Part shown: piece after piece, positions 28,906 through 44,874 of the stretch
Layout of the letters: each line of letters begins with the position of its first letter
Numbering within the stretch: position 1 is the stretch's first letter
From: Bradyrhizobium sp. CB1717
GTDB taxonomy: Bacteria; Pseudomonadota; Alphaproteobacteria; Rhizobiales; Xanthobacteraceae
Direction: 5' to 3'
Assembly (NCBI RefSeq): GCF_029714325.1
Contig: NZ_CP121666.1
Span: forward strand, 5,890,001-5,954,000
Length of the DNA: 64,000 nt
Notes under the pieces: generated by a model
What the model was told of the DNA's origin: nothing
The model's database searches: none
Seen by the model: only the letters and a program-made list of their open reading frames with translations
Position numbers and translations under genes: made by a program

Positions 28906-29679
28906 TTAGCGCTCGGCAAAGGCCTTTTCGACCACGAACTGGGCCGGCTCGCCGTGGTTGCCCTCGACGAAGCCGCGCTCGCCAAGCAGCACGCGGGTGT
29001 CGGCGACCAGCGCCGGGCTGCCGCAGATCATGACGCGGTCATGGGCGGCTTCCAGCGCCGGCAGGCCGATATCGGTGAACAGCTTGCCTGACGTGATGAG
29101 GTCGGTGATGCGACCGCGGTTGCGGAAAGGATCGCGGGTCACGGTCGGGTAGTAGATCAGCTGGCTCTGGATGTACTCGCCGAGCAGCTCGTCCTTCGGC
29201 AGATGCTCGGTGATCATCTCGCCATAGGCGAGCTCCTTGACGTGCCGGCAGCCGTGCAGCAGCACCACCTTCTCGAACCGCTCGTAGGTCTCGGGGTCCT
29301 TGATCACGCTCAGGAACGGCGCAAGGCCGGTGCCCGTGCCGATGAGGTAGAGGTTGCGCCCCTCCTCCAGGTTGTCGATCACCAGCGTACCCGTGGCCTT
29401 GCGGCTGACGATGATCTCGTCACCTTCCTTCAGATGCTGGAGCCGCGAGGTCAGCGGACCGTCCGGCACCTTGATCGAGAAGAACTCCAGCGTGTCCTCG
29501 TAATTGGCGCTGGCGACGCTATAGGCCCGCAGCAGCGGCTTCTCGCCGACCTTGAGCCCGATCATGGTGAATTCGCCGTTGCGGAAGCGGAAGGTCGGGC
29601 TGCGGGTGGTCTTGAAGGAGAACAGCGTGTCGGTCCAGTGGTGGACGCTCAAAACGCTTTCCTGATTGAAATTGCTCAT
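28906..29679 (-). CDS. fpr: Ferredoxin-NADP+ reductase
   Basis: 257-residue plant-type/bacterial subclass FNR. FAD motif LLRAYSVAS (RxYS), second FAD contact PLTSRLQHLKEGDEI, NADP motifs GTGTGLAPFLSVIKD and VMICGSPALVADTR, and the C-terminal FVVEKAFAER typical of subclass I bacterial FNRs. It would reduce ferredoxin with NADPH. It is divergent from the enamidase gene and shares its operator, and 6-hydroxynicotinate reductase is ferredoxin-dependent, so supplying that enzyme is the likely role. Confidence 0.93.
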   Translation of the reverse strand: MSNFNQESVLSVHHWTDTLFSFKTTRSPTFRFRNGEFTMIGLKVGEKPLLRAYSVASANYEDTLEFFSIKVPDGPLTSRLQHLKEGDEIIVSRKATGTLVIDNLEEGRNLYLIGTGTGLAPFLSVIKDPETYERFEKVVLLHGCRHVKELAYGEMITEHLPKDELLGEYIQSQLIYYPTVTRDPFRNRGRITDLITSGKLFTDIGLPALEAAHDRVMICGSPALVADTRVLLGERGFVEGNHGEPAQFVVEKAFAER

Positions 29680-29744
29680 CTCACCCTTCCGTTTCGCTTC
29701 TGTGCGGTTCCGAGGCGGTCAGCTATGCGTCGTTTGTACACGAT

Positions 29745-29760
29745 CATTCGTATACTAATG
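29745..29760. promoter_or_regulatory. Nicotinate-cluster operator, fpr/ena copy
   Basis: CATTCGTATACTAATG, a near-perfect 16-bp palindrome centred on GTATAC, in the 157-base divergent gap between fpr and ena. Shares the 13-mer ATCATTCGTATAC with the hnr copy at 39510-39522. A weaker element CGTTTGTACACGA lies just upstream at 29731-29743. Confidence 0.7.
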
Positions 29761-29836
29761 AATAATCCGGCTTGATCCCGCGGTCAAGGCTGCCCAAGAT
29801 CGGAAGCGTTGCAGTTAGGAATAAGGAGCCCCTTCC

Positions 29837-31033
29837 ATGGCGCATGACGCCCCCCAGGCCACCGGACCCTCGAAGCTGGTGATCCGAAATATCGGCCTGA
29901 TCCTGTCCGGCGCGCTGGAAAAGCCGATCCTGGACGGCGACACCATCGTCGCCGAGAACGGCAAGATCACCGCGATCGGCCGCTTCAAGGACCTCAATAC
30001 CGAAGGCGCGACCACCATCGTCGAGGCCAACGGCACCACGGTGGCGCCCGGCCTGATCGACAGCCACGTCCATCCCGTCGCGGGCGACTGGACGCCCCGC
30101 CAGAACCAGATCGGCTGGATCGACAGCAATCTGCATGGCGGGGTCACCACCATGATCTCCGCCGGCGAAGTGCACATGCCGGGCCGGCCCCGCGACGTCG
30201 TCGGGCTGAAGGCCATGGCGATCTTCGCCCAGCGCGCCTTCTGGAATTTGCGGCCCGGCGGCGTGAAGGTTCACGCCGGCGCGCCCGTGATCGAATGCGA
30301 GATGGTCGAGGAGGATTTCAAGGAGCTGGCCGCCGCCGGCGTCAAGCTGCTCGGCGAGGTCGGCCTCGGCGGCGTCAAGGACGGCCCGACCGCGCGAAAG
30401 ATGGTCGGCTGGGCCCGCAAATACGGCATCCAGAGCACCATCCATACCGGCGGCCCCTCGATCCCCGGCTCCGGCCTGATCGACAAGGACGTCGTGCTGG
30501 AGGCCGACACCGACGTGGTCGGCCACATCAATGGCGGCCACACCGCGCTCCCCGACGACCAGATCCGCTGTATCTGCGAGGGCTGCAAGCGCGGCCTCGA
30601 GATCGTGCACAACGGCAATGAGCGCTCGGCCCTGTTCACACTGCGCATTGCGCGCGAGATGGGCGATCTGCACCGCGTCATCCTCGGCACCGACGCGCCC
30701 GCCGGCTCCGGCGTGCAGCCGCTCGGCATTTTGCGCATGGTCTCGATGCTGTCCTCGCTTGGCGAGCTGCCGGCCGAGATCGCCTTCTGCCTGGCCACCG
30801 GCAACACCGCGCGGATGCGCCAGCTCGATTGCGGCCTCATCGAAGTCGGCCGTTCCGCCGACTTCGTCATCATGGACAAGGCCCAGCACTCACCCGGCAA
30901 GAACATCCTGGAGAGCGTCCAGCTCGGCGACCTCCCCGGCATCGGCATGACCATCATCGACGGCATTGTGCGCACCCAGCGCAGCCGCAACACCCCGCCG
31001 GCCGGCAAGGTGCCGGAGGTGGTGGCGAAGTAA
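29837..31033 (+). CDS. ena: Enamidase (amidohydrolase; nicotinate degradation)
   Basis: 398-residue binuclear amidohydrolase. Enamidase of Eubacterium barkeri hydrolyses 1,4,5,6-tetrahydro-6-oxonicotinate to 2-formylglutarate and ammonia. Metal motifs here: APGLIDSHVHPVAGDW (HxH), LLGEVGLGGVKDG (bridging Glu), TIHTGGPSIPGSG (His), VVGHINGGHTALPDD (His) and LGTDAPAGSGVQP (Asp). The length fits, and gene context with 6-hydroxynicotinate reductase and nicotinate hydroxylase supports the call. Product 2-formylglutarate would decarboxylate or be oxidised to glutarate in an aerobic route; those genes are not in the window. Confidence 0.85.
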   Translation: MAHDAPQATGPSKLVIRNIGLILSGALEKPILDGDTIVAENGKITAIGRFKDLNTEGATTIVEANGTTVAPGLIDSHVHPVAGDWTPRQNQIGWIDSNLHGGVTTMISAGEVHMPGRPRDVVGLKAMAIFAQRAFWNLRPGGVKVHAGAPVIECEMVEEDFKELAAAGVKLLGEVGLGGVKDGPTARKMVGWARKYGIQSTIHTGGPSIPGSGLIDKDVVLEADTDVVGHINGGHTALPDDQIRCICEGCKRGLEIVHNGNERSALFTLRIAREMGDLHRVILGTDAPAGSGVQPLGILRMVSMLSSLGELPAEIAFCLATGNTARMRQLDCGLIEVGRSADFVIMDKAQHSPGKNILESVQLGDLPGIGMTIIDGIVRTQRSRNTPPAGKVPEVVAK

Positions 31034-31053
31034 AAGCTGCGCAAGTGTCCACC

Positions 31054-31183
31054 CCGTCATCCTGAGGTGCGAATGCACGGCGCGATAGCGCTGTGCACGA
31101 GCCTCGAAGGATGAACGGCCGAGATGCAGCCGGGCCGTCGCCCTTCGAGCGCCGCTGAAGAAGCGGCCACCTCAGGGTGACGG
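31054..31183. repeat. Dispersed intergenic inverted repeat (type A)
   Basis: Outer arms CCGTCATCCTGAGGTG and CACCTCAGGGTGACGG pair with one mismatch; internal arms around CCTTCGAG also pair. The form resembles repeats scattered through Bradyrhizobium intergenic DNA. It lies behind the enamidase gene and may act as its terminator. Confidence 0.65.
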
Positions 31184-31220
31184 GCAAAGTCTCGAATTCA
31201 CATCGGCTTGTTCAGCTGCC

Positions 31221-31313
31221 GTAGGGTGGGCAAAGCGAAGCGTGCCCACCATCGTCTCTGCTGGAGCGGGCAAAGATGGTGGGCACGGCGCTTCGCGCCT
31301 TTGCCCACCCTAC
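31221..31313. repeat. Dispersed intergenic inverted repeat (type B)
   Basis: GTAGGGTGGGCAAAGCGAAG plus CGTGCCCACCAT, then the reversed order ATGGTGGGCAC to TTTGCCCACCCTAC. Long near-perfect stem between the convergent ends of ena and marR; a bidirectional terminator role is plausible. Confidence 0.7.
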
Positions 31314-31323
31314 GAGACCGCCT

Positions 31324-31779
31324 TCACCTCAGCTTACTGAGAAGCGCCATCAGCAGCTCGCGCTCTTTCGCATCGAGCGGGGCCAGCGTCTCGCGGGTGA
31401 TCGCCAGCGCATTGGGCGCGAGCTTCTCCGCAAGCTGCTGGCCGGCGCGGGTCAGGCTCACCAGCAGGCGGCGGCCGTCCTCGGGATCCTGGCTGGTCTC
31501 GGTGAGGCCGCGCGCGGTCAGGCGGTCGATCACGCCCTTGATGGTGGCAACGTCCATCGCCGTCAGCCGACCGAGCTGGTTCTGCGAGCACGGACCGGTC
31601 TCGGCGAGTTTTGACAGCGCCGCCCATTGCGTCGGTGTCAGATTGGTGCCGATGTCGCGGGAGAAGATCGAGCTGTGACGCTGCCAGACCTGGCGCAGGA
31701 TGAAGCCGACCTGCTCGTCGAGCACATAAGGCGGTTTTGCCGGTTTGATGTTCTTCTTCGCCGCGACGCTTCTCGCCAT
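31324..31779 (-). CDS. MarR-family regulator (candidate nicotinate regulator)
   Basis: 151-residue MarR repressor from the chosen ATG (MARSVAAKKN). Dimer/wHTH elements: LRQVWQRHSSIFSRDIGTNL, TQWAALSKLAETGPCSQNQL, DVATIKGVIDRLTARGLTET and the wing SQDPEDGRRLLVSLT. In Pseudomonas putida a MarR-type NicR controls nic genes and responds to 6-hydroxynicotinate; this gene is last in the hnr operon, so it is a good candidate for binding the shared 16-bp palindromes. A start further upstream would overlap livF. Confidence 0.88.
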   Translation of the reverse strand: MARSVAAKKNIKPAKPPYVLDEQVGFILRQVWQRHSSIFSRDIGTNLTPTQWAALSKLAETGPCSQNQLGRLTAMDVATIKGVIDRLTARGLTETSQDPEDGRRLLVSLTRAGQQLAEKLAPNALAITRETLAPLDAKERELLMALLSKLR

Positions 31780-31804
31780 CCCCTCGCCGCCCTTCCCCTT
31801 GCCT

Positions 31805-32509
31805 TCACAACGACAGATGCGCGTCGCGGATGTCCGGACGCGCATCGAGCTCGGCCATGGTGCCGCCGAAACAGATGCGGCCGCGCTCGATGATGTAGGC
31901 GCGATCGGAGATCAACCGCGCGAAGTGCAAATTCTGCTCGGAGACGACGATGCTGACGCCCTCCTTCTTCATGGTCAGGATGGCATCGACCATCTGCTCC
32001 ACGATCTTCGGCGACAGGCCTTCCGACGGCTCGTCCAGCAGCACCAGCGACGGATTGCCCATCAGCGTGCGCGCGATGGTCAGCATCTGCTGCTCGCCGC
32101 CGCTCATGCGTCCGCCCGGGCGGTTCTTCATCTCGCCGAGATTTGGAAACAGCGCGAACAGTTTTTCGCGCGTCCAGTGCGGCGCATTGGGACGCTTCGG
32201 CTGCCGGCCGACTTCGAGGTTTTCCTCCACCGTCAGGTCGGTGAAGATGCGCCGCTCCTCCGGCACGTAGCCAAGGCCATCGCGCACGATCTCATGGGTC
32301 GGCTTCGCCGAGACGTCCTTGCCCTCGAACATGATGCGGCCGGAGCGCTGCGCGACAAGGCCCACGATCGAGCGGAACGTCGTCGACTTGCCGGCGCCGT
32401 TGCGGCCCAGCAGCGCTACCACCTCCCCCTCCCCGACCTCGAAGCCGATGTCGAACAGGATATGCGCCGGGCCATAATGGCTGTTGAGATCTTGCACCGT
32501 GAGCTTCAT
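31805..32509 (-). CDS. livF: Branched-chain-type ABC transporter ATP-binding protein (LivF)
   Basis: 234-residue HAAT-family ATPase: Walker A GRNGAGKSTTF, signature MSGGEQQMLTIART, Walker B LVLLDEPSEGLSP, and the LivF-specific YVPEERRIFTDLTVEENL. Overlaps livG by four bases. Part of an importer co-transcribed with hnr and therefore probably carrying nicotinate or a related aromatic acid rather than leucine. Confidence 0.92.
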   Translation of the reverse strand: MKLTVQDLNSHYGPAHILFDIGFEVGEGEVVALLGRNGAGKSTTFRSIVGLVAQRSGRIMFEGKDVSAKPTHEIVRDGLGYVPEERRIFTDLTVEENLEVGRQPKRPNAPHWTREKLFALFPNLGEMKNRPGGRMSGGEQQMLTIARTLMGNPSLVLLDEPSEGLSPKIVEQMVDAILTMKKEGVSIVVSEQNLHFARLISDRAYIIERGRICFGGTMAELDARPDIRDAHLSL

Positions 32510-33297
32510 GCCGAGGTCCCCTCGCGGTGGCGGGAATCGTAGACGAGACCCTCGCCGAGATAGACCGCCTGCACCTGCGGATTGCCGCGCACCTCGGCCG
32601 GCGAGCCCTCGGCGATCAGCGTGCCGCGGTTGAGCACGATGATGCGGTCTGCATGCTCGAACACCACGTCCATGTCGTGCTCGGTGAAGAGCACGCCGAT
32701 CGACTTCTCCCGCGCGATCTGCGCGGTCAGCCGCATCAGGTCGACGCGCTCGCGCGGCGCCATGCCGGCGGTTGGCTCGTCCATCAGGAGAAGCTTTGGC
32801 TCATTGGCGAGCGCGACCGCAAGCTCGAGCCGCTTGAGGTCGCCATAGGCGAGCTCGCCGCAGGGACGATCGGCGTAGCCGCCCATGCCGACCAGCTCGA
32901 GCAGCCGCCCGGCCTCGCCGCGGTCGAAATTCGGCGCCGAGCCGAAGAGATTGAACAGCTGCTTCCCGTGCGAGATCAGCGCGACCTGGACATTCTCGCG
33001 CACCGTCATGGTGGCGAAGGTCGCCGTGATCTGGAAGGTGCGGCCGACGCCCATCCGCCAGATCTCGCGCGGCTTCTTGCCGGTGGTCTCCTCGCCGAGC
33101 AGGCGGACGTGGCCGCTATCCGGCTTGTTCTGGCCGTTGAGCATGTCGAAGCAGGTGCTCTTGCCCGCACCGTTCGGACCGATCAGCGCCAGGATTTCGC
33201 CTGCGCGCAGTGAGAACGAGACGCCGCGCACGGCATGGATGCCGCCATAGGATTTGGTCAGGCCTTCGACCGCGAGAAGTGGGGGTGCAACGCTCAT
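32506..33297 (-). CDS. livG: Branched-chain-type ABC transporter ATP-binding protein (LivG)
   Basis: 263 residues: Walker A GPNGAGKSTCFDMLNG, Q-loop GRTFQITATFATMTV, a degenerate signature CGELAYGDLKRLELA, Walker B KLLLMDEPTAGMAP and the switch His FTEHDMDVVFEHAD. The C-terminal BCA_ABC_TP_C-like tail ends VQAVYLGEGL. Overlaps the permease stop by four bases. Confidence 0.92.
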   Translation of the reverse strand: MSVAPPLLAVEGLTKSYGGIHAVRGVSFSLRAGEILALIGPNGAGKSTCFDMLNGQNKPDSGHVRLLGEETTGKKPREIWRMGVGRTFQITATFATMTVRENVQVALISHGKQLFNLFGSAPNFDRGEAGRLLELVGMGGYADRPCGELAYGDLKRLELAVALANEPKLLLMDEPTAGMAPRERVDLMRLTAQIAREKSIGVLFTEHDMDVVFEHADRIIVLNRGTLIAEGSPAEVRGNPQVQAVYLGEGLVYDSRHREGTSA

Positions 33298-35183
33298 TCG
33301 GCGGACTCGATCGGCTTGGCAAGCAGAGGAGATCCCGGCGGCGATGACTTCCTGCGGCGCTGCGCCAGCATCTCCAGCATGCCGACGATGCCCTTGGGGA
33401 AGACGACGACGATCAGCACGATGAAGCCGCCGAGCACGAGTTTTGAGAGGTCGGTCTGGCTCACCAGCCAGATGTTCAGCGCCTTGTAGACGATGGCGCC
33501 GATCACCGCGCCCGACACCGTCTCGACGCCGCCGAGCAGCACCATGACCAGCGCATCGACGGAGAGCGAGATGCCGAGATTGTCAGGAAAGACGCTGCCC
33601 TTCAGGTACGCGAACAGGGCGCCGCCAATGCCGGCAGTGGTGCCCGCGATCACGAAGGCGGTCCACTGGATGCGCTTGGCATTGATGCCGATCGCCTCGC
33701 TGCGCAATAGCGAGTCGCGCGTCGCCCGGAGCGCATAGCCGAACGGCGAGAACACCATGACCCGCAGCACGATCGTGACGAGCGCGGCGACGCCGAGCGC
33801 CAGCCAGTAAAAATGCGATGGGCTCGCCGCCCACTTCTCGGGCCATACACCGAGAATGCCGTTGTCCCCGCCCGTGACGCTCACCCACTGGAACGCAATC
33901 GACCAGACGATCTGCGCGAAGGCAAGCGTCAGCATCGCAAAGTAGACGCCGGAGAGCTGCACGGCAAAGAAGCCGAATACGGCGGCGCCCATGCAGCCGA
34001 GCAGCGGCCCGAGCAGCAGGCACACGATCATCGGCAGCCCCGCCATCTTGGCAAGGAAGGCGATGCCATAGGCGCCGAGGCCGAAATAGGCGGCATGGCC
34101 GAACGAGGCGAGCCCGCCGACCGACATCAGGAAGTGCAAGGAGACGGCGAAGATCACGAAGATCGCGATCTCCGAGCCGACGGTCAGCGCGTAATTTCCG
34201 GCGAACAGCGGCAGCGTCGCCGCGATGACGAGCGCTGCCAGCGAGGCCAGCCGCTCGTTCGACGTCAGCGGCCGCCAGGGATTGACGGTGAGACCCGGCG
34301 TCTTGCGCGCGGCGGCCTCCGGCTTGCCGAACAGGCCCCAGGGTCGCACGATCAGCACCACCGCCATCACCAGGAAGACCAGGATGATGGAGATCTTCGG
34401 GAAGATCAGGATGCCGAAGGCGTTGAGCTCGGAGACCAGCACCGCCGCAACGAAGGCGCCGACGATGCTGCCGAGGCCGCCGATCACGACCACGACGAAG
34501 ACCTCGACGATGATGCGCAGGTCCATCGCATGATGCACGGCATCGCGCGGGATCTGGAGCGCGCCGCCGAGGGCGGCGAGGAAGACGCCGACCGCGAACA
34601 CTGATGTGAACAGCCATTTCTGATTGACGCCGAGCGCTGCGACCATGTCGCGGTCCTGCGTCGCCGCGCGCACCAGCACGCCCCACCGCGTGCGCTGGAA
34701 CAAGAGCCAGAGAATGCCGAGCACGACCGGGCCGAGCACGATCAGGAACAGATCGTAGCTCGGGATGTTCTGGCCGAAGAAATCGATCGCGCCCTTGAAG
34801 CCCGGCGCGCGGCGGCCGACGAGATCGTCGGGACCCCAGACCAGCACGACGAGATCCTCGACCATCAAGGTCAGGCCGAAGGTCGCGAGCAGCTGGAACA
34901 ATTCGGGCGCATGATAGATGCGGCGCAGCAGCACCATCTCGACCAGCACGCCGATCAGCGCCACCGCCAGCGCGGCCAGCACGATGCTCCCCCAGAAGCC
35001 GAACGCGCCCGACAGGCGCTCCGTCAGCGTGAAGGCGATGTAGGCGCCGATCATGTAGAACGCGCCGTGCGCGAAATTCACGATCCGGGTCACGCCGAAG
35101 ATGATCGACAGGCCCGACGCCACCAGGAACAGCGACGCTGCGCTGGCGAGACCGGTCAAAAACTGTACGACGTAAAAGGCCAT
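33294..35183 (-). CDS. Fused branched-chain-type ABC permease (LivH-LivM)
   Basis: 629-residue fusion of both membrane subunits. Residues 1-290 are LivH-like (SGLSIIFGVTRIVNFAHGAF, VVVVIGGLGSIVGAFVAAVL), a short linker KPEAAARKTPGLTVNPWRPL follows, and residues about 310-629 are LivM-like (SVGGLASFGHAAYFGLGAYG, VMVLLGGVETVSGAVIGAI). LivH and LivM are usually separate proteins; the fusion gives a one-chain permease with about 16 helices. It is followed by livG and livF and preceded by a hairpin and the binding protein gene. Confidence 0.92.
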   Translation of the reverse strand: MAFYVVQFLTGLASAASLFLVASGLSIIFGVTRIVNFAHGAFYMIGAYIAFTLTERLSGAFGFWGSIVLAALAVALIGVLVEMVLLRRIYHAPELFQLLATFGLTLMVEDLVVLVWGPDDLVGRRAPGFKGAIDFFGQNIPSYDLFLIVLGPVVLGILWLLFQRTRWGVLVRAATQDRDMVAALGVNQKWLFTSVFAVGVFLAALGGALQIPRDAVHHAMDLRIIVEVFVVVVIGGLGSIVGAFVAAVLVSELNAFGILIFPKISIILVFLVMAVVLIVRPWGLFGKPEAAARKTPGLTVNPWRPLTSNERLASLAALVIAATLPLFAGNYALTVGSEIAIFVIFAVSLHFLMSVGGLASFGHAAYFGLGAYGIAFLAKMAGLPMIVCLLLGPLLGCMGAAVFGFFAVQLSGVYFAMLTLAFAQIVWSIAFQWVSVTGGDNGILGVWPEKWAASPSHFYWLALGVAALVTIVLRVMVFSPFGYALRATRDSLLRSEAIGINAKRIQWTAFVIAGTTAGIGGALFAYLKGSVFPDNLGISLSVDALVMVLLGGVETVSGAVIGAIVYKALNIWLVSQTDLSKLVLGGFIVLIVVVFPKGIVGMLEMLAQRRRKSSPPGSPLLAKPIESAE

Positions 35184-35210
35184 CTTCGGTCCGGGTTAGG
35201 TTTGAAGTCA

Positions 35211-35237
35211 CCTCTCCCCGCGAAGAGCGGGGAGAGG
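35211..35237 (-). terminator. Intra-operon hairpin between binding protein and permease
   Basis: Perfect 11-bp stem (CCTCTCCCCGC / GCGGGGAGAGG) with a 5-base loop in the 70-base gap. Such hairpins stabilise the upstream mRNA or partly stop transcription, so the periplasmic binding protein is made in excess over the membrane parts. Confidence 0.6.
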
Positions 35238-35253
35238 GAGAGATAGAAAACGA

Positions 35254-36456
35254 TCAATCCTTCGGCCGCAGCTTCTCGACTTCGGCGTCGCTGGGCAGAT
35301 AGTCCGCGCCCTTCTTGTAGGACGAATCCACCATCACGCCCTTGCCGTCCTTCAGCGCGGTCTTGCCGACATAGGCGCCGAGCGTCGACTGGTGATCGAT
35401 CTTGCGGAAGGTGATCTCGCCGAAGGGCGAGCCCATCGACAGACCTTCAGCCGCGGCAATCAGCTTCTCCGGATCGGTCGAGCCGGCCTTCGCGAGAATG
35501 GCGGCGGCCGACTTGATGGTCTGATAGCCGACGATCGAGCCGAGGCGCGGATAGTCGTTGTACTTGGCCTGGTAGGCCTTCAGGAACGCATCATGCTCGG
35601 GCGTCTTGATCGAGTACCAGGGATAGCCGGTGACGATCCAGCCCTCGGGCGTCTCGTCCTTGAGCGGATCGAGATATTCCGGCTCGCCGGTCAGAAACGA
35701 CACCACCTCGCGCCCCTTGAACAGGCCGCGGGTGTTGCCTTCGCGCACGAGCTTGACGAGGTCGGCGCCGAAGGTGACGTTGAGGATCGCCTCCGGATTG
35801 GCCGCGGCAACCGCCTGCACCACCGGGCCCGCATCGATCTTGCCCTGCGGCGGCCACTGCTCGTCGACCCACTGGATGTCCGGGCGCTTCTCCGACATCA
35901 GCTTCTTGAACACGGCAACCGCCGACTGGCCGTACTCGTAGTTCGGCGCGATCGTCGCCCAGCGTTTTGCGGGCAGCTTGGCGGCAGCCTCCACCAGCAT
36001 CGCGGCCTGCATGTAGTTGGAGGGACGCAGACGGAACGTGTACTTGTTGCCCTTGGACCAGGTGACGGCATCCGTCAGCGGCTCGGCCGCGAGGAAGAAC
36101 ACTTTCTTCTGGTTGGCGAAGTCGCTGACCGCGAGGCCGATGTTCGACAGGAACGTGCCGGTCAGCATTGCAACGCCTTCGCTGGAGACGAGCTCGTTGG
36201 CCGCGGTCTGCGCATCGGCCGGCTTGCCGCCGTCGTCCTTGGAGATGACGACCAGCTTCTTGCCGTTGATGCCGCCGGCCGCGTTGATCTCCTCGACCGC
36301 GAGCTGCCAGCCCTTGCGATAGGGCTCGGTGAACGCCGGCAACAGCGAATAGCTGTTGATCTCGCCGATCTTGATGTCCTGTGCCACGGCCGAATGGGCC
36401 ATGCCGCCGGCCAGTAGCGCGAAGGCCGCGCCGACGAAGTAATTTCTTGCTCGCAT
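35254..36456 (-). CDS. Branched-chain-type ABC transporter substrate-binding protein (LivK-like)
   Basis: 400-residue periplasmic binding protein, signal MRARNYFVGAAFALLAGGMA then cleavage near SAVAQD. Family features: KIGEINSYSLLPAFTEPYRK, GWQLAVEEINAAGGINGKKL and ELVSSEGVAMLTGTFLSN. HAAT relatives bind aromatic acids as often as amino acids. Its place directly behind the hnr-UPF0280-DUF1185 genes suggests nicotinate or 6-hydroxynicotinate as ligand; this is inference. Confidence 0.9.
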   Translation of the reverse strand: MRARNYFVGAAFALLAGGMAHSAVAQDIKIGEINSYSLLPAFTEPYRKGWQLAVEEINAAGGINGKKLVVISKDDGGKPADAQTAANELVSSEGVAMLTGTFLSNIGLAVSDFANQKKVFFLAAEPLTDAVTWSKGNKYTFRLRPSNYMQAAMLVEAAAKLPAKRWATIAPNYEYGQSAVAVFKKLMSEKRPDIQWVDEQWPPQGKIDAGPVVQAVAAANPEAILNVTFGADLVKLVREGNTRGLFKGREVVSFLTGEPEYLDPLKDETPEGWIVTGYPWYSIKTPEHDAFLKAYQAKYNDYPRLGSIVGYQTIKSAAAILAKAGSTDPEKLIAAAEGLSMGSPFGEITFRKIDHQSTLGAYVGKTALKDGKGVMVDSSYKKGADYLPSDAEVEKLRPKD

Positions 36457-36535
36457 CCCAACCTCCAGTTTTGAACTCTCTACGTCTTCAGCGTGATCTT
36501 GTCGGGGAAGCTGTGCCCGCCTCCCCGGTTCAAAC

Positions 36536-37120
36536 CTATCTCAGACCGTCTTCGCCCTTGACTTCCGCAACCGTCAGTCCGCCGACGCGTGGCAGCGGAC
36601 GGCCGCTGTCGGTGACGGCGACCGCGACCATGATCTCGTTGGCGCGCGGCGCGTCGTTGATCTGCACCTCCATGCCGTCGAAATGGCTGCGCACGAAGGC
36701 GGCGTCCTTGTGCCCGAGCGGAATATCGAGGGTCGTGCCCGGCCCGCTGCGCTTCTTCGACGACGGGATCAGCGCCGCGCCCTTGCCCAGAACCTTACGC
36801 ACCGGCGCGCCCATCTTGGGGTGAAGGATGGCGGCGGCATGCTCGAGCTCGCCGTTCTCGCCGACCGCTGCGGCCTTGCCATAGCTTTGAGCCTTCGCGC
36901 CTTCGATGCCAAGCGCCGCCACCGCGCGCTTCGACAGGAGCTCGCCGAGCTCCTCGCCGATCGCGATCAGCGGCGAGAGATCCTCGACATATTTTCCGGC
37001 AAAGGGATTTTCGATCACGGCGATCGCGGCGGCACGCCGGGTCGGCGGCGAGACCTGGCGGCCCATCTCCATCTGCGTCTCTTCGACGACGGTGACGATC
37101 TTGCGGATGATCGCGCTCAT
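36536..37120 (-). CDS. DUF1185 (AA_synth) family protein
   Basis: 194-residue protein of the poorly named amino-acid-synthesis family. Starts MSAIIRKIVTVVEETQMEMG and contains RAAAIAVIENPFAGKYVEDL, GKAAAVGENGELEHAAAILH and DIPLGHKDAAFVRSHFDGME. No biochemical role is established to my knowledge. Start set by GGGGAAG eight bases upstream. Encoded 15 bases after the UPF0280 gene in the hnr operon, so an accessory role in heterocycle reduction or cofactor handling is the contextual guess. Confidence 0.85.
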   Translation of the reverse strand: MSAIIRKIVTVVEETQMEMGRQVSPPTRRAAAIAVIENPFAGKYVEDLSPLIAIGEELGELLSKRAVAALGIEGAKAQSYGKAAAVGENGELEHAAAILHPKMGAPVRKVLGKGAALIPSSKKRSGPGTTLDIPLGHKDAAFVRSHFDGMEVQINDAPRANEIMVAVAVTDSGRPLPRVGGLTVAEVKGEDGLR

Positions 37121-37135
37121 GTTTCGCTTCCCCGT

Positions 37136-38032
37136 TCAGGCATCGACCGCGTTCTCCAGCACAAGCGGGCGCGTTCGTTGCTCTTCTATATCCTTGGTTC
37201 CGATGACAAGCATATCACCACAAAGCCGCAGCACGGCATCCTCGATCAATCCGCGATCGAACAATTGCCGTGCACATTCCGCGCCAGATTCCAGCGCGGC
37301 TGCGATCTCGTTGTGAGACAATTCGCCGACATCGCGGGTCACGAGACGCTCGCCGAGATCGCTGTCGGGCTGAAGCTCGCTCGCAGGCTTGCGGACGATG
37401 GCGGGATGCCCGGGCAGATCGACGGCATTGGCGATGACCGTCGCGGCCGCATCGGCCTGCGACGCTGTCGCCGCGAGCACCGTCACCGCGTCGGCGATCC
37501 CGAGCGAAAAGCTGCGGCCGTGGCGTCCGCTGGTCGCGATCCCGCGCACGGGATCATTCGCATCGACCCTCATGGTCCGCATCACGCCGTCGCGGTCCGG
37601 CCGGTCCATCAGGCCGACGGCAAAATGCTCGCCCTTGCCGAGATGCAGCGCGATGTCGCCGCCATTGTTGACATAGGCCCGATCGAGCGTCGCGGCGCCA
37701 AGCATCGCGCCCAGAATCTCCTCCGCCACGCTGCCTGCGACCGCGGCCATGGGCGTGATGAAGCAACCGGAGGCATAAGGCGCGACGGCGGCGTGCATGC
37801 GGCGCGCGACAACGCCCTTCAGCAAGCTTTTCTCCTCGGCGGCCGCCCGCAGCGCCGGCAGTTCCGCACAGAGCTCGTCGAGCAGTCCGGTGAACCGCTG
37901 CGCCGCAGCTTCATAGGCCGCGCGCACCTCGTCCGCGCGTCCCCTCGCCTCGACGATCAGATCAATCGGTCCATCCTGCAAATGCAGCCGCCGGCCATCA
38001 GACAGCAATGCGATTTGCGGGAGCCGTGTCAT
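37136..38032 (-). CDS. UPF0280 family protein (ApbE-like fold)
   Basis: 298-residue protein of UPF0280, a family related in fold to ApbE flavin transferases. Text: LPQIALLSDGRRLHLQDGPI, the conserved core MAAVAGSVAEEILGAMLG, RAYVNNGGDIALHLGKGEHF and GIATSGRHGRSFSLGIADAV, the last two corresponding to ApbE's flavin/Mg-binding NxGGD and GIATSG regions. Its start overlaps the hnr stop by four bases. Since 6-hydroxynicotinate reductase of E. barkeri carries covalently bound flavin, this protein could be the attaching enzyme; inference, untested. Confidence 0.82.
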   Translation of the reverse strand: MTRLPQIALLSDGRRLHLQDGPIDLIVEARGRADEVRAAYEAAAQRFTGLLDELCAELPALRAAAEEKSLLKGVVARRMHAAVAPYASGCFITPMAAVAGSVAEEILGAMLGAATLDRAYVNNGGDIALHLGKGEHFAVGLMDRPDRDGVMRTMRVDANDPVRGIATSGRHGRSFSLGIADAVTVLAATASQADAAATVIANAVDLPGHPAIVRKPASELQPDSDLGERLVTRDVGELSHNEIAAALESGAECARQLFDRGLIEDAVLRLCGDMLVIGTKDIEEQRTRPLVLENAVDA

Positions 38033-39486
38033 GCCCGAGGCCCCGGAATCGGATTCTGCCAAGGCAGCTGGCGAACATCCTCGCCGCTCTGCACTTCCGA
38101 GAGCGGCTTCACGTAATCCATGTGCCCGCCGAGCGCGGCATAATCCGACAGCTTCATCGTGAACTCGATCGGCGCGACCAGCGCCGGCGTCGGCACGTAG
38201 CCGAATGCGCCCGCCGGCATCTGCGTCACATCGACCATGTAGGTGATGCCGCCGCCCGGCCAGACGTAAACAGGCGCGCCGCCGCTGGTGACGCGCGTCA
38301 GCGCGTCCTTCACCGAGCGCGTCAGCCGCACCGGATTGTCGGTGACACCGGCGCGCAGCGAGCCGCCGGCACCGGCCATGAACAACACCGTGCACAATGC
38401 CGGTTCGCAATTCTCCTGGATGCGCTCGACCGAGAATTTCAGATCGGCCGGCATCTCGGTCTCAACCGGATTCAAGGCCTCGTCGAGCACGTAATAGGAC
38501 GAATGCTCGCCGGTTGTGGAGACCATCAACATGGTCAGCCCGGCCTTGGCCTCCTTCTTGTCGAAGGGCCCGAGGATCGCAAGCGGATCGGAAATGTTGG
38601 TGCCGCCCCAGCCCGTGCCGGGATCGGCCACCTGGAAGTAGCGGCCGGGCGTCGAGCGGCGCCCCTTCATCTTGATGCCGGTGTCGGCGATGTCGAGCAG
38701 CTTGCCGGCCTGGTGCTCCGAGAGCACACCGGTGATGTGGTCATCGACCACGACGACCTCGTCGACCTTGCCGTGCCATTGCTTGGCGAACATGCCGATC
38801 GTCGCCGAGCCGCAGCCGACGCGCATGCGCTCTTCCTTCACACCGTTGACGATCGGCGGCTGGCCGGCCTGCACCACCACCGTGGCGCCGCCGTCGATGG
38901 TGAGCTCGACCGCCTTGCAATTGGCGAGGTCCATCAGCGTGTCGCAGGTGACTCGGCCCTCCTTCTTGGAGCCGCCGGTCAGGTGATGCACGCCGCCGAG
39001 CGACAGCATCTGCGAGCCGTATTCGCTGGTGGTGACGTGACCGACCGCCTCGCCCTGCGCGCGCACGGTCGCAGTCTCCGGGCCGAGATAGCGGTCGGTG
39101 TCGATCTTCACCTTGATGCCGCAATAGGAGAAGATGCCCTCGGTGACCACGGTCACCATGTCGACGCCGTCGACCTCCGCGGAGACGATGAACGGCGCCG
39201 GCTTGTAGTCGGGATAGGTCGTGCCAGCGCCGATCGCGGTGACGAAGGTCGAGGGTTCGTGGACGATCTTGCCGTCCCAGTCTTCCGTGCGGCTGAACGG
39301 AACGAGCTTTCCGCCATGCGAGACGGTGCGCTCCAGGATCACGTGCGGATCGACGCGGACGAGCTTGCCATCGTGGTTGGCATAGCGGTCGCAGGCGCCC
39401 GCCGCGCCCGGCTTGATGTAGCACATTACCGGACAGGCATCGCAGCGGATCTTGTCGGTGGCAGCGCTCGTTGTTTCCATCACCAT
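38029..39486 (-). CDS. hnr: 6-hydroxynicotinate reductase (iron-sulfur flavoprotein)
   Basis: 485-residue oxidoreductase recognised as 6-hydroxynicotinate reductase. The N-terminus holds a Cys cluster (Cys15, 18, 22, 32: IRCDACPVMCYIKPGAAGAC) for an Fe-S centre; more Cys occur in FSYCGIKV, RVTCDTLMDLANC, RVGCGSAT and NCEPALC. The E. barkeri enzyme has one [2Fe-2S], two [4Fe-4S] and covalent flavin and reduces 6-hydroxynicotinate to 1,4,5,6-tetrahydro-6-oxonicotinate using ferredoxin. First gene of a nine-base-tight operon running to marR. Start is ATG at 39486 or the Met two codons later. A 16-bp operator lies 26 bases upstream. Confidence 0.85.
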   Translation of the reverse strand: MVMETTSAATDKIRCDACPVMCYIKPGAAGACDRYANHDGKLVRVDPHVILERTVSHGGKLVPFSRTEDWDGKIVHEPSTFVTAIGAGTTYPDYKPAPFIVSAEVDGVDMVTVVTEGIFSYCGIKVKIDTDRYLGPETATVRAQGEAVGHVTTSEYGSQMLSLGGVHHLTGGSKKEGRVTCDTLMDLANCKAVELTIDGGATVVVQAGQPPIVNGVKEERMRVGCGSATIGMFAKQWHGKVDEVVVVDDHITGVLSEHQAGKLLDIADTGIKMKGRRSTPGRYFQVADPGTGWGGTNISDPLAILGPFDKKEAKAGLTMLMVSTTGEHSSYYVLDEALNPVETEMPADLKFSVERIQENCEPALCTVLFMAGAGGSLRAGVTDNPVRLTRSVKDALTRVTSGGAPVYVWPGGGITYMVDVTQMPAGAFGYVPTPALVAPIEFTMKLSDYAALGGHMDYVKPLSEVQSGEDVRQLPWQNPIPGPRA

Positions 39487-39511
39487 GTCAGGCCAGCGGA
39501 GACGTCGTTAT

Positions 39512-39527
39512 CATTCGTATACGAACG
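39512..39527. promoter_or_regulatory. Nicotinate-cluster operator, hnr copy
   Basis: CATTCGTATACGAACG, with a perfect 12-bp core TTCGTATACGAA; extended near-palindrome from 39510 to 39529. On the minus strand a consensus TTGACA lies at 39552-39557, upstream of it, so a repressor here would block the hnr operon promoter. Confidence 0.72.
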
Positions 39528-39660
39528 ATGTTGCGCGTGGTCCCCTAGGCCTGTCAAGCGGCGGTGCAGCGCAAAAGATATAGCTGCCGCATAAAACCTC
39601 ATTTGCCTATCGGTTCTGTCCACAAAGAAGGCACTCGCGCTGCAGTGCGGCATGCACGGC

Positions 39661-39688
39661 TTGCACGTTTGTGTACAAACGGTATCGT
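39661..39688 (+). promoter_or_regulatory. nicA promoter with operator between -35 and -10
   Basis: -35-like TTGCAC (39661-39666), 16-base spacer, -10-like TATCGT (39683-39688). The spacer is almost entirely the operator CGTTTGTGTACAAACG (39666-39681), with 6-bp perfect arms. Compared with the hnr copy read on the same strand, the consensus is C(A/G)TTNGTRTACNAAYG. Confidence 0.65.
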
Positions 39689-39737
39689 CGCGACGTAGAA
39701 TTTTTGCGACTGCATGGTCTTGGACTTGGGAACAGGG

Positions 39738-40220
39738 ATGACGCAGACACCGATCCGCCTCACCGTGAACGGCAGGATCCACGAGGTCGCTGCAGAGCGC
39801 CAGACGCCGCTGCTCTATGTGCTGCGCAACGATCTCGCGCTCAACGGCCCGAAATATGGTTGCGGCCTCGGCGAATGCGGCACCTGTACTGTCCTGATCG
39901 ACGGCGCCGCGGCGCGTTCCTGCGTGATTCCGATCGGCGGCTGCGCCGGCCGCGACATCGTGACGCTCGAAGGCCTCGGCACGCGCGACAAGCCTGATGT
40001 CGTGCAGCAGGCCTTCATCGACGAGCAGGCCGCGCAATGCGGCTACTGCCTCAACGGCATGATCATGACCACCAAGGCGCTGCTCGCGCAGAACCCCCGT
40101 CCGACCGAGCAGGAGGCGCTGGCTGCGCTGCGCTACAATCTCTGCCGCTGCGGCACGCATGTCGAAATCCTGCGCGCCGTGATGCGCGCATCAGGTCAGC
40201 TCACCGAGGCCGCAGATTGA
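39738..40220 (+). CDS. nicA: Nicotinate dehydrogenase small [2Fe-2S] subunit (NicA-like)
   Basis: 160-residue xanthine-dehydrogenase-family iron-sulfur subunit. Plant-type [2Fe-2S] motif YGCGLGECGTCTVLIDG and the second cluster CGYCLNGMIM with CRCGTH near the end. Transfers electrons from the molybdenum centre of the large subunit to its cytochromes. Start ATG 39738 follows GGAACAGGG; an ATG eight codons earlier is possible. Its stop overlaps the start of the large subunit (TGATG). Related (2Fe-2S) subunits also serve isoquinoline or aldehyde oxidases, so the substrate rests on the neighbours. Confidence 0.85.
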   Translation: MTQTPIRLTVNGRIHEVAAERQTPLLYVLRNDLALNGPKYGCGLGECGTCTVLIDGAAARSCVIPIGGCAGRDIVTLEGLGTRDKPDVVQQAFIDEQAAQCGYCLNGMIMTTKALLAQNPRPTEQEALAALRYNLCRCGTHVEILRAVMRASGQLTEAAD

Positions 40221-43200
40221 TGGCCTCCCCTGTTTCGAACGGAGCTGGGCGCCCATCGGGTTCGCTCGTCGTCGCCCGCAGCGTGGACGAGGTTACATCC
40301 GAGACCTTCGTCCGCATCACCGCGGACGGTTCGGTCACGGCCTATAACGGCCATGTCGATCTCGGCACCGGCATCCGCACTGCGCTGGGCCAGATCGTGG
40401 CCGAAGAGCTCGACGTCTCCTTTGCGCGCGTCGTCGTCGTGCTCGGCGACACGGCCGTGGTGCCAAACCAGGGCGCGACGATCGCCAGCGAGACCATCCA
40501 GATCACCGCCGTCCCCCTGCGCAAGGCCGCAGCGCAGGCGCGGCACTTCTTGATCGCACGCGCGGCCGAACGGCTGGAGCTGCCGCCCGCCGACCTCAAG
40601 ATCGAGGACGGCCTCGTGCGCGGACATGACAACCGCAGCGTCAGCTATGGCGAACTGATCGCCGGCGAAGAGATCCGGCTCGAGCTCGAAGACGACGTCG
40701 CTGTGAAGCCTGTCGGCGATTACGCCATCGTCGGCCACTCCGTCCCGCGTGTCGACGTGCCGGCCAAGGCCACGGGCGAATTGACCTTCGTCCACGACAT
40801 CCGCGTACCGGGCATGCTGCACGGCCGCGTGGTGCGCCCGCCCTATGCCGGCGTCGATGCCGGGCCGTTCGTCGGCACCAGCCTGCTTGCGGTCGACCAA
40901 GCCTCGGTGCGCCACATTCCCGGCATCGTCGCCGTCGTCCACATCGGCGATTTCGTCGGTGTCGTTGCCGAGCGCGAAGAGAATGCGATTCGCGCCGCCG
41001 AGCAGCTCAAGCTGAGCTGGAAGCCGACGCCCTCCCTCACCGATCTCGCCGATGTCGAGACCGCGCTGCGCGCCAATCCCTCGACGCCGCGCACGCTGAT
41101 CGACAAGGGCAACGTCGATGCTGCCATTGCCGGCGCGGCCAAGCCGATGCAGCGCACTTACGTCTGGCCGTATCAGATGCACGCCTCGATCGGCCCGTCC
41201 TGCGCGGTCGCCGATTTTCAGGACGGCAATATCCGCGTCTGGTCCGGCACGCAGAACCCGCATGTCCTGCGCAGCGATCTCGCGCTGCTGATCGAGCGTC
41301 CCGAGAGCGAGATCGAGGTCGTCAGGCTGGAGGCTGCCGGCTGCTACGGCCGCAATTGCGCCGATGACGTCACCGCCGACGCGCTGCTGCTGTCGCGCGC
41401 GGTCGGCCGCCCCGTCCGCGTGCAATTGACGCGCGAGCAGGAGCATGCCTGGGAGCCCAAGGGCACCGCGCAACTCATCGACGTCAATGGCGGCCTCGAC
41501 GCCGACGGCGGCATCGCCGCCTACGACCTCGCCACGCGCTATCCCTCGAACGCCGCCCCGACGCTCGCGCTCCTGCTCACCGGTCGCATCTCGCCCGATC
41601 CCGCCGTGCTCCAGATGGGCGACCGCACCGCGATCCCGCCTTACGACTACGACCACATGCGCGTCGTCGCCCACGACATGGCGCCGATCGTGCGCGCCTC
41701 CTGGTTTCGGGGCGTCTCGGCGCTGCCGAACACCTTTGCGCATGAATCCTATATCGACGAGGCCGCGGCCGAGGCCGGCGTCGATCCGATTGAATATCGC
41801 CTGCGCTATCTGAGGGACCAGCGCGCCGTCGAACTGGTCAATGCGGTGGCCGAGCGCGCCGGCTGGACGCCGCGGCCGGTTCGCGAGGAGAAGGATGGCG
41901 AGGTCGTGCACGGGCGCGGTTTTGCCTACGCGCTCTACGTCCACAGCAAGTTTCCCGGCTATGGCGCGGCGTGGTCGGCCTGGGTCACAGACGTCGCGGT
42001 GAACAAGGCCACCGGCGACGTCAGCGTCACGCGCGTCGTCGCCGGGCAGGATTCCGGCCTGATGATCAATCCGGACGGCGTCCGCCACCAGATCCACGGC
42101 AACGTCATCCAGTCCGCCAGCCGTGCGCTGATGGAGGAGGTCTCGTTCGAGCGCGGCGCGGTGGCGGCGCGCGAATGGGGCGCCTATCCGATCATCCCCT
42201 TCCCCGACGTGCCCAAGATCGACGTGCTCCTGCTGCCGCGGCAGGACCAGCCGCCGCTCGGCGTCGGCGAGTCCGCCTCGGTGGCGAGCGCGGCGGCGAT
42301 TGCGAACGCGATTTTCGATGCCACCGGCGTGCGCTTTCGCGAGCCGCCATTCACGCCGGAGCGCATTCTGAAGGGGCTGTACGGGGAGGCATCGCCCGTG
42401 CCGCAATCGCTGCCCGCGCCCGCAGCCCCGCGACCGTTCCGCATCTGGGAAAGTCCATTCGCCAAGCGCGCCGGGATCTTCGCGACGATTGCGGCCGTCT
42501 GCACCGCCGCGATCGGAATCGGCGCCGCGCTTCTGCCCGGGCGCGCCATTGCGCCGATCGCGCGGCCCGATGCATCGGTCTATACCACCGCGACGATCGC
42601 GCGCGGCCAAGAGCTCGCAGCGCTCGGCAATTGCGCGGAGTGCCACACCAGCCTCAGCGGCGCGCCAAACGCCGGCGGCCGCGCGCTGGAGACGCCTTTC
42701 GGCACGATTTATTCAACCAACATCACGCCCGATGTCGAGACCGGCATCGGCGCCTGGTCCTATCCCGCCTTCGAGCGCGCGATGCGCGACGGCCTGCATC
42801 GCGACGGCCGCCAGCTCTACCCCGCCTTCCCCTACACGCATTTTGCGAAGACCAGCGACGCCGATATGCAGGCGCTCTACGCCTATCTGATGGCCCAGCC
42901 CGCGGTGCGCGCGACAGCGCCCGCCAACACGCTCGCCTTCCCGTTCAATCTCCGTCCGCTGCTTGCAGGCTGGAATGCGCTGTTCCATCAGACGCAGGAG
43001 TTCAAGCCCGATCCCGCCAAGTCCGAGCAATGGAATCGCGGCGCCTATCTCGTCGAAGGTCTCGGCCATTGCAGCGGCTGCCATTCACCGCGCAACGCGC
43101 TCGGCGCCGAGCAGCGCAAGGCCTATCTTGCCGGCGGCTTTGCCGAGGGCTGGGAAGCGCCGCCGCTGACCTCGCTCTCGCACGCGCCGATCCCGTGGAG

Positions 43201-43744
43201 CGAGGACGAGCTCTACGCTTATTTGCGCACCGGCCATTCACGCTATCACGGCGTCGCCGCCGGCCCGATGGCGCCGATCGTGAGGGACCTCAAGGCCCTG
43301 CCCGACGAGGACATCCGTGCGATGGCGGTCTATCTCAACTCGTTCAACGACACCGCGACCGAGACGCCGGACGCGCTTGCAGCACGGCTGGAAAGCGCGA
43401 CGCAGGTCACCGTCGCCTCCTCCTCCGGCGCGCGCCTCTATCAAGGCGCCTGCGCCGTGTGCCACGAGGTCGGCGGCCTGCCGCTGTTCGGCAGCCGTCC
43501 CTCGCTCGCGCTCAACAGCAATCTGCACAGCACGACATCGGACAATCTCGTGCAGGTGATCCTGCACGGCATCACTGAACCGGTCTCGAGCGATCTCGGC
43601 TACATGCCGGCGTTCAGGAACAGCATGAGCGACGCACAGCTCGAGGAGCTCGTCACCTTCCTGCGCCGGCAGTTCGCGCCGGACAAGCCGGCCTGGACCG
43701 GCGTGCGCGAGACGATCGCGAGGGTGCGGGCGTCTGCGCATTAA
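40220..43744 (+). CDS. nicB: Nicotinate dehydrogenase large subunit: molybdopterin domain fused to three cytochrome c domains (NicB-like)
   Basis: 1174 residues. Residues 1 to about 735 form the Mo-cofactor-binding aldehyde oxidase/xanthine dehydrogenase domain (GSVTAYNGHVDLGTGIRTAL, VRLEAAGCYGRNCADDVTAD, GVGESASVASAAAIANAIFD). A transmembrane segment follows at about 749-774, then three cytochrome c domains with heme sites CAECH (about 804), CSGCH (about 950) and CAVCH (about 1077). This order and length match NicB of Pseudomonas putida, which hydroxylates nicotinate at C6 and feeds electrons to the respiratory chain. The membrane anchor places the cytochromes in the periplasm; how the Mo domain is oriented is uncertain. 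No separate FAD subunit is encoded. Confidence 0.88.
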   Translation: MASPVSNGAGRPSGSLVVARSVDEVTSETFVRITADGSVTAYNGHVDLGTGIRTALGQIVAEELDVSFARVVVVLGDTAVVPNQGATIASETIQITAVPLRKAAAQARHFLIARAAERLELPPADLKIEDGLVRGHDNRSVSYGELIAGEEIRLELEDDVAVKPVGDYAIVGHSVPRVDVPAKATGELTFVHDIRVPGMLHGRVVRPPYAGVDAGPFVGTSLLAVDQASVRHIPGIVAVVHIGDFVGVVAEREENAIRAAEQLKLSWKPTPSLTDLADVETALRANPSTPRTLIDKGNVDAAIAGAAKPMQRTYVWPYQMHASIGPSCAVADFQDGNIRVWSGTQNPHVLRSDLALLIERPESEIEVVRLEAAGCYGRNCADDVTADALLLSRAVGRPVRVQLTREQEHAWEPKGTAQLIDVNGGLDADGGIAAYDLATRYPSNAAPTLALLLTGRISPDPAVLQMGDRTAIPPYDYDHMRVVAHDMAPIVRASWFRGVSALPNTFAHESYIDEAAAEAGVDPIEYRLRYLRDQRAVELVNAVAERAGWTPRPVREEKDGEVVHGRGFAYALYVHSKFPGYGAAWSAWVTDVAVNKATGDVSVTRVVAGQDSGLMINPDGVRHQIHGNVIQSASRALMEEVSFERGAVAAREWGAYPIIPFPDVPKIDVLLLPRQDQPPLGVGESASVASAAAIANAIFDATGVRFREPPFTPERILKGLYGEASPVPQSLPAPAAPRPFRIWESPFAKRAGIFATIAAVCTAAIGIGAALLPGRAIAPIARPDASVYTTATIARGQELAALGNCAECHTSLSGAPNAGGRALETPFGTIYSTNITPDVETGIGAWSYPAFERAMRDGLHRDGRQLYPAFPYTHFAKTSDADMQALYAYLMAQPAVRATAPANTLAFPFNLRPLLAGWNALFHQTQEFKPDPAKSEQWNRGAYLVEGLGHCSGCHSPRNALGAEQRKAYLAGGFAEGWEAPPLTSLSHAPIPWSEDELYAYLRTGHSRYHGVAAGPMAPIVRDLKALPDEDIRAMAVYLNSFNDTATETPDALAARLESATQVTVASSSGARLYQGACAVCHEVGGLPLFGSRPSLALNSNLHSTTSDNLVQVILHGITEPVSSDLGYMPAFRNSMSDAQLEELVTFLRRQFAPDKPAWTGVRETIARVRASAH

Positions 43745-44726: not shown

Positions 44727-44837
44727 GATTTCCTCCAGGGCTTGTCCAGTAAGGCGTGGCTGCGTTCCGCCTGACCGACGGCGCGATTGAGACGCGGGAC
44801 ATAACGACAGGCGTCTCTGCACGGCGCCGAACGTTTT

Positions 44838-44874
44838 CATTTGTACTAATGTACAAATGATTAGGTCCCGTCAA
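44838..44874 (-). promoter_or_regulatory. TetR promoter/operator (copy 2)
   Basis: Perfect inverted repeat CATTTGTAC - TAAT - GTACAAATG (44838-44859) followed by AGGTCCCGTCAACAA (44863-44877), i.e. TTGACG as -35 on the minus strand. Matches copy 1 at 22333-22368 almost throughout. Drives the extradiol dioxygenase with a leader of roughly 100 bases. Confidence 0.75.

Follow-up and report, generated by a model that had tools for sequence, protein, structure and literature searches.

Gene content and organization of the island

The window, by which we mean the whole 64,000-base stretch of DNA analysed, covers bases 5890001–5954000 of a 9,232,581-base genome assembled as a single contig. Positions 28906–43744 of the window hold an island of twelve genes: fpr, ena, marR, livF, livG, livHM, a substrate-binding protein gene, a PF06684 gene, a UPF0280 gene, hnr, nicA and nicB. 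Of these, ena, nicA and nicB lie on the forward strand and the remaining nine on the reverse strand. The features are as follows.

28906..29679, reverse: Fpr-like ferredoxin/flavodoxin-NADP+ reductase (NAD_binding_1 and FAD_binding_6)
29743..29761, forward: operator copy 1, between fpr and ena (palindrome ATCATTCGTATACNAAYGA)
29837..31033, forward: enamidase, Ena (best PDB match 2vun, E=3e-109)
31324..31845, reverse: MarR-family regulator (42% identical to the MarR proteins of the oxidative nic loci L121/L122)
31805..32509, reverse: ABC importer ATPase LivF (domain match)
32506..33297, reverse: ABC importer ATPase LivG (domain match)
33294..35183, reverse: fused permease LivH-LivM (two BPD_transp_2 stretches)
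35254..36456, reverse: substrate-binding protein (Peripla_BP_6)
36536..37120, reverse: PF06684/DUF1185 protein (solved relatives 2qtp and 3byq)
37136..38032, reverse: UPF0280/DUF375 protein with an ApbE-like fold, proposed Hnr flavin-attachment factor (family match)
38029..39486, reverse: 6-hydroxynicotinate reductase homologue, Hnr, without a ferredoxin domain (named homologues)
39510..39528, forward: operator copy 2, between hnr and nicA (palindrome ATCATTCGTATACNAAYGA)
39714..40220, forward: NicA-like [2Fe-2S] subunit (Fer2 and Fer2_2)
about 40217..43744, forward: NicB-like molybdopterin subunit (MoCoBD and three C-terminal Cytochrom_C stretches)

Domain and homologue matches recovered every gene that the original prediction had named (NicA/NicB, Hnr, Ena and Fpr) at the expected positions, together with the complete ABC importer that it had described (LivF, LivG, fused LivH-LivM and the Peripla_BP_6 protein, 31805–36456, reverse strand). 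The MarR, PF06684 and UPF0280 genes are additions to its list. Its statement that nicC, nicX and nicF are missing locally also holds for the island, none of NicC, NicX, NicD, NicE and NicF being found among the island genes. Likewise, none of these genes was recognized as encoding a decarboxylase, a semialdehyde dehydrogenase or a ferredoxin, and scanning the window for Rfam families and tRNAs returned no matches. The space between ena and marR (31034–31323) contains inverted repeats that, by eye, resemble dispersed palindromic elements.

A catechol 2,3-dioxygenase gene (43758–44840; TIGR03211 above cut-off) is convergent with nicB and is preceded by the dyad TTTGTAC-TAAT-GTACAAA. It was considered as an island member and excluded, because among seven relatives it adjoins NicB in only two (L124 and L126, which belong to the same genus).

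Operators and the MarR regulator

The island had been predicted to carry shared operators, and the palindrome ATCATTCGTATACNAAYGA indeed occurs at 29743 and at 39510, with 0.00 occurrences expected in 100 shuffles. A core pattern built from these two sites themselves, allowing up to one mismatch, matched only two places in the genome, both of them the island sites and each on both strands; the same pattern read backwards, used as a control, gave one genome match. At up to two mismatches the operator was present in 4 of 18 loci scanned, at both places in L100 and L108, near ena in L113 and near hnr in L115, and it was absent from the Azorhizobium (L104) and Aquabacter (L110) loci in the same scan. 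All seven further family relatives carry it upstream of hnr, and the three whose fetched stretch includes Ena (L124, L125 and L126) also carry it between ena and fpr. In L121 and L122, the loci of oxidative nic type, it was not found. The obvious candidate to act on both palindromes is the island's own MarR protein, which would probably repress the two divergent promoters through them.

Enamidase and the association of NicAB with Hnr

Ena is homologous over its full length to the Eubacterium barkeri enamidase 2vun (47% identity). The window protein keeps H66, H68, E163, H192, H219 and D275 (numbered along the 2vun chain as typed), and we take these six positions to be candidate ligands of a binuclear metal site.

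Across 198 genomes of the family, Hnr was detected in 58, a NicB orthologue (a hand-picked set of rows at ≥59% identity) in 60 and both in 56; 54 of the pairs share one contig, every one within 8.2 kb. The corresponding Fisher test (p = 7e-42) overstates independence, since the counts take in related genomes. Hnr occurs without NicB in G123, which has a different cluster, and in G183; NicB occurs without Hnr in G084, G180, G077 and G116. In G077 and G116 the contig ends near the cluster, that of G116 reading NicA-NicB-Fpr-Ena up to its end. In G084 and G180 the corresponding loci (L121 and L122) have the look of complete oxidative nic clusters, with NicX at 49% and 48%, respectively; the G180 NicC scores 602 bits against 6-hydroxynicotinate 3-monooxygenase 5eow, and the G084 NicC and the genes like nicD, nicE and nicF were recognized by eye only. 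The NicB proteins of these two clusters are 59–60% identical to that of the window, which links the window NicB to nicotinate. As NicB stands with Hnr in most of these genomes and with nic clusters in G084 and G180, it seems that a single NicAB orthologue supplies two distinct lower pathways in the same family.

Genomes beyond the family give another picture. Hnr was found (E≤1e-60) in 68 of 385 alphaproteobacterial genomes; apart from G000 and G024, the other 66 are all listed only as belonging to the same class and are treated here as lying outside the family. The NicB orthologue (E≤1e-180) was present in one of these 66, so that NicAB combined with Hnr is rare outside the family in the genomes sampled. 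All three outside-family loci put through Pfam (L091, L101 and L160) contain a FAD-type molybdenum hydroxylase.

Domain architecture of Hnr and its possible electron supply

Among the 120 matches listed for the window Hnr, several are named 6-hydroxynicotinate reductase (NCBI or JGI) and others hypothetical protein; close homologues carry the name Bradyrhizobium. The motif CX2CX3CX9C (C15, C18, C22 and C32) is invariant in 61 sequences and is probably a [2Fe-2S] site. For a wider comparison we used 80 loci of enamidase relatives from named genomes, kept from at least 416 confirmed relatives; 62 of them have an Hnr match, a few being fragments, among the matches listed. On the same basis, two CX2CX2CX3C motifs precede CX2CX3CX9C in 41 of the 57 readable Hnr N-termini and none in the other 16, with five of the 62 left unclassified. 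Pfam confirmed Fer4 domains in one such protein (L047). The window Hnr has no ferredoxin domain of this two-[4Fe-4S] N-terminal type upstream. Of the 16 domain-less proteins, 14 come from titled genera or groups that we place in the Alphaproteobacteria, the others being from a MAG titled as Acidobacteria (L092) and from L075. The L075 protein stands apart from the alphaproteobacterial lineages in the tree and is likewise without the domain, perhaps through an independent loss. E. barkeri Hnr reportedly contains one [2Fe-2S] cluster, two [4Fe-4S] clusters and a covalent flavin; the motif count agrees with this composition and would leave the window Hnr with a single cluster.

The Fpr protein scores 163 bits against NF008178 (ferredoxin-NADP+ reductase), under the 390-bit cut-off. 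Among the matches listed, Fpr occurs in five of the 62 Hnr loci (L100, L104, L108, L110 and L115), always beside Ena, and all five have NicAB or its NicA at the edge. For 11 of the 16 domain-less loci, again among the matches listed, Fpr was not seen in the stretch examined; one of these 11, L113, has NicAB and a stretch that ends inside NicB. Loss of the ferredoxin domain is thus wider than pairing with Fpr, and the idea that Fpr is a general substitute for the lost domain, or the general donor of domain-less Hnr, is weakened, with only 5 of the 16 showing it. For the island itself, NADPH acting through Fpr may be the source of electrons for Hnr. This idea is helped by G123, in which Fpr (81%), UPF0280 (56%) and Hnr (71%) stand together without Ena or NicB (loci L118 and L117). 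The G123 group adjoins hydantoinase A/B and an MFS carrier, and about 39 kb away the same genome has NicX (45%) in the company of genes for an isochorismatase, a FAD monooxygenase and an XDH-type hydroxylase.

UPF0280 and PF06684 proteins

The UPF0280 protein has an ApbE fold, and its NCBIfam model is named only as a hypothetical protein. ApbE flavin transferases use a catalytic histidine (PMC12052999); the UPF0280 alignment has no histidine column above 36% and hence no conserved catalytic histidine. The flavinylation motif Dxx[ST]GA[ST] had no match in 59 Hnr sequences, and canonical ApbE flavinylation of Hnr was rejected on this ground, the UPF0280–Hnr pair differing from ApbE systems on both sides. 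Within GCGSAT, T229 of Hnr is a threonine in 50 of the 59 sequences. We propose that UPF0280 attaches the flavin to Hnr. A literature search on UPF0280 gave no match and the DUF375 titles listed look unrelated; no link between UPF0280 and Hnr was seen there, and one may still exist in print.

Among the matches listed, 57 of the 62 Hnr loci also carry PF06684. Many alphaproteobacterial loci, those of Afipia included, carry two copies in tandem, whereas the window and all four other fetched loci of its genus (L123, L124, L126 and L127) have one. Solved PF06684 structures show a chorismate-mutase-like fold for which a role in amino-acid metabolism was suggested, and the term nicotin is absent from the available text of that report (PMC2954203).

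Hnr loci without enamidase

Outside the family, Ena (E≤1e-100) accompanies Hnr in 28 of the 66 genomes and is missing at that threshold from 38, and Hnr was therefore discarded as proof of nicotinate use; with Ena in 28 and this NicB in one of the 66, Hnr by itself does not imply nicotinate. Six Ena-less loci were inspected. Hydantoinase A is present in L160 (Pfam) and seemingly in L162 (by eye), and the remaining four have no hydantoinase in the stretch, their genes being partly annotated. L160 (G400) and L162 (G290) read Hnr-UPF0280-Liv importer and then hydantoinase A, with no enamidase seen, and in L160 a FAD-type molybdenum hydroxylase lies upstream of the Hnr cluster. The frequency of Ena-less Hnr and these hydantoinase loci suggest that Hnr proteins may serve more than one substrate.

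A FastTree phylogeny of 49 Hnr tips was built from the best 28 of the 66 class genomes, with G123, G575 and G576 fetched separately, reference loci and G365 entered twice. One clade, with 26 tips and a support of 0.987, contains the window Hnr; beside it stand eight reference loci, 16 tips whose genomes have Ena, and G123, whose genome does not. In another clade, of 18 tips (support 0.907), 13 tips are without Ena (12 genomes, G365 counting twice) and two have it, the remaining three being the Ena-bearing reference loci L091, L093 and L101.

Proposed pathway and alternative readings

Gene content, operators, co-occurrence and folds were computed directly; the enzyme activities, electron donor, inducer and flavin transfer are predictions. 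Read in this way, the island is very probably a reductive nicotinate operon of the Azorhizobium/Bradyrhizobium type. The earlier proposal that nicotinate is hydroxylated and its ring then reduced draws support from the domains, the Ena identity, the layout, the operator and the joint occurrence of Hnr and NicB, all at the level of sequence. In the proposed scheme, the Liv-type importer would bring nicotinate into the cell, and NicAB, with its molybdenum, [2Fe-2S] and cytochrome c centres, would convert it to 6-hydroxynicotinate and pass electrons to the respiratory chain. Using electrons that originate from NADPH and arrive by way of Fpr, either directly or via a ferredoxin encoded elsewhere, Hnr would then reduce the ring and so form 1,4,5,6-tetrahydro-6-oxonicotinate. 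Ring opening by Ena would yield ammonia and 2-formylglutarate. Enzymes encoded elsewhere than in the island would presumably decarboxylate the latter and carry its oxidation on through glutarate, as in the Azorhizobium pathway.

It is unlikely that the island degrades some other carboxylated N-heterocycle, for example another hydroxypyridine carboxylate, by the same logic of hydroxylation, reduction and hydrolysis. Such a reading is encouraged by the many Ena-less Hnr genomes in the class and by the hydantoinase loci L160 and L162, and the substrate of a molybdenum hydroxylase is not readable from its sequence. Yet the window Hnr belongs to the clade in which nearly all members keep Ena, and the oxidative nic clusters have the same NicB as the window. 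Moreover, strain SG-6C, which has the published cluster, can use nicotinate and 6-hydroxynicotinate for growth, and 6-hydroxynicotinate appears transiently (PMC3511419).

That nicotinate is mainly oxidised elsewhere in the genome through NicC and a NicX-like enzyme, leaving the island a secondary role, is very improbable. A full NicC–NicX route was one of the findings that the original prediction had named as a challenge to its reading; relatives of both enzymes exist, and among the NicC and NicX matches compared no full route was found. One of 37 FAD_binding_3 matches listed in the genome (C1:2038761; L031:8747-9871), picked by eye as the one to be compared with the PDB, has 5eow as its best match (327–329 bits), weaker than the NicC of the G180 nic cluster. 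By eye this gene is stand-alone, its neighbours resembling molybdenum-cofactor genes, and inspection of some 8 kb to each side showed no nicX, nicD or nicF. The sole NicX match in the genome (C1:3466533) is 35% identical and was not counted as an orthologue; the relatives in seven other genus members are at 34–35%, against best matches of 44–55% in 15 other family genomes (threshold ≥44%, which leaves out G107 at 42%), two of which also have Hnr. In a genome-wide pattern search the operator was absent at both the NicC-like gene and the NicX relative. The presence of these relatives led us to drop the clean claim of a genome without NicC or NicX. The two routes can coexist, since one member of the window's genus (G138) has an Hnr–NicB pair as well as a 55% NicX, and this favours the oxidative reading very slightly.

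Within the preferred reading of a reductive nicotinate operon, details of the island hint at an anaerobe's enzyme fitted to aerobic life. We tentatively suggest, as a possibility below even chances, that Alphaproteobacteria refitted an anaerobe-type Hnr: the ferredoxin domain was lost, the NicAB lineage later gained an NADPH-dependent Fpr dedicated to it, and UPF0280, as a divergent ApbE-type enzyme, matures Hnr in the cytosol by placing flavin at a non-canonical site. If so, Hnr-UPF0280 would be a portable module for reducing N-heteroaromatic rings, combined with NicAB or FAD-type hydroxylases and with enamidase or hydantoinase as ring openers. The interest may lie in a dearomatising reductase without a ferredoxin domain that has an NADPH reductase and a so far uncharacterised protein resembling ApbE for neighbours. 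This arrangement makes flavin attachment to 6-hydroxynicotinate reductase testable and suggests a role for the UPF0280 family. It also points to a wider set of alphaproteobacterial Ena-less Hnr clusters.

Comparison with known systems

The cluster is already known, and our finding is mainly a correct re-discovery: the novelty implied by the original prediction falls away, as the island is one more copy of a cluster published for the reductive nicotinate route in four strains (PMC3511419, Fig. 4A), namely A. caulinodans (AZC_2804-2790), B. japonicum USDA110 (blr3818-3830), R. palustris HaA2 and SG-6C. Like it, the window groups a nicotinate hydroxylase, Hnr, a ring-opening enzyme and an importer; the two were likened by gene content, USDA110 being of the same genus, and no difference was established. 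The published cluster includes two conserved proteins of unknown function, which may correspond to UPF0280 and PF06684, and the SG-6C Hnr is 42% identical to that of E. barkeri (PMC3511419). The PMC3511419 passages on the cluster do not mention the loss of the ferredoxin domain, the pairing with Fpr, an ApbE fold for UPF0280, an operator or the NicAB exchange.

Nicotinate fermentation in E. barkeri shares with the window an enamidase at 47% identity and differs from it in the hydroxylation step, for which the window has NicAB with cytochrome c. There, E. barkeri uses a four-subunit dehydrogenase, and its lower pathway is also different. Among the Hnr proteins compared, anaerobe-type relatives have the ferredoxin domain that the window Hnr lacks. 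With the P. putida nic cluster (NicABCDEFX), which has a NicAB-type hydroxylase and a MarR regulator, the window shares a hydroxylase of this type with cytochrome c and a MarR protein, its NicB being likened to the nic type through the L121 and L122 proteins. The P. putida cluster oxidises the ring, whereas the island described here is predicted to reduce it.
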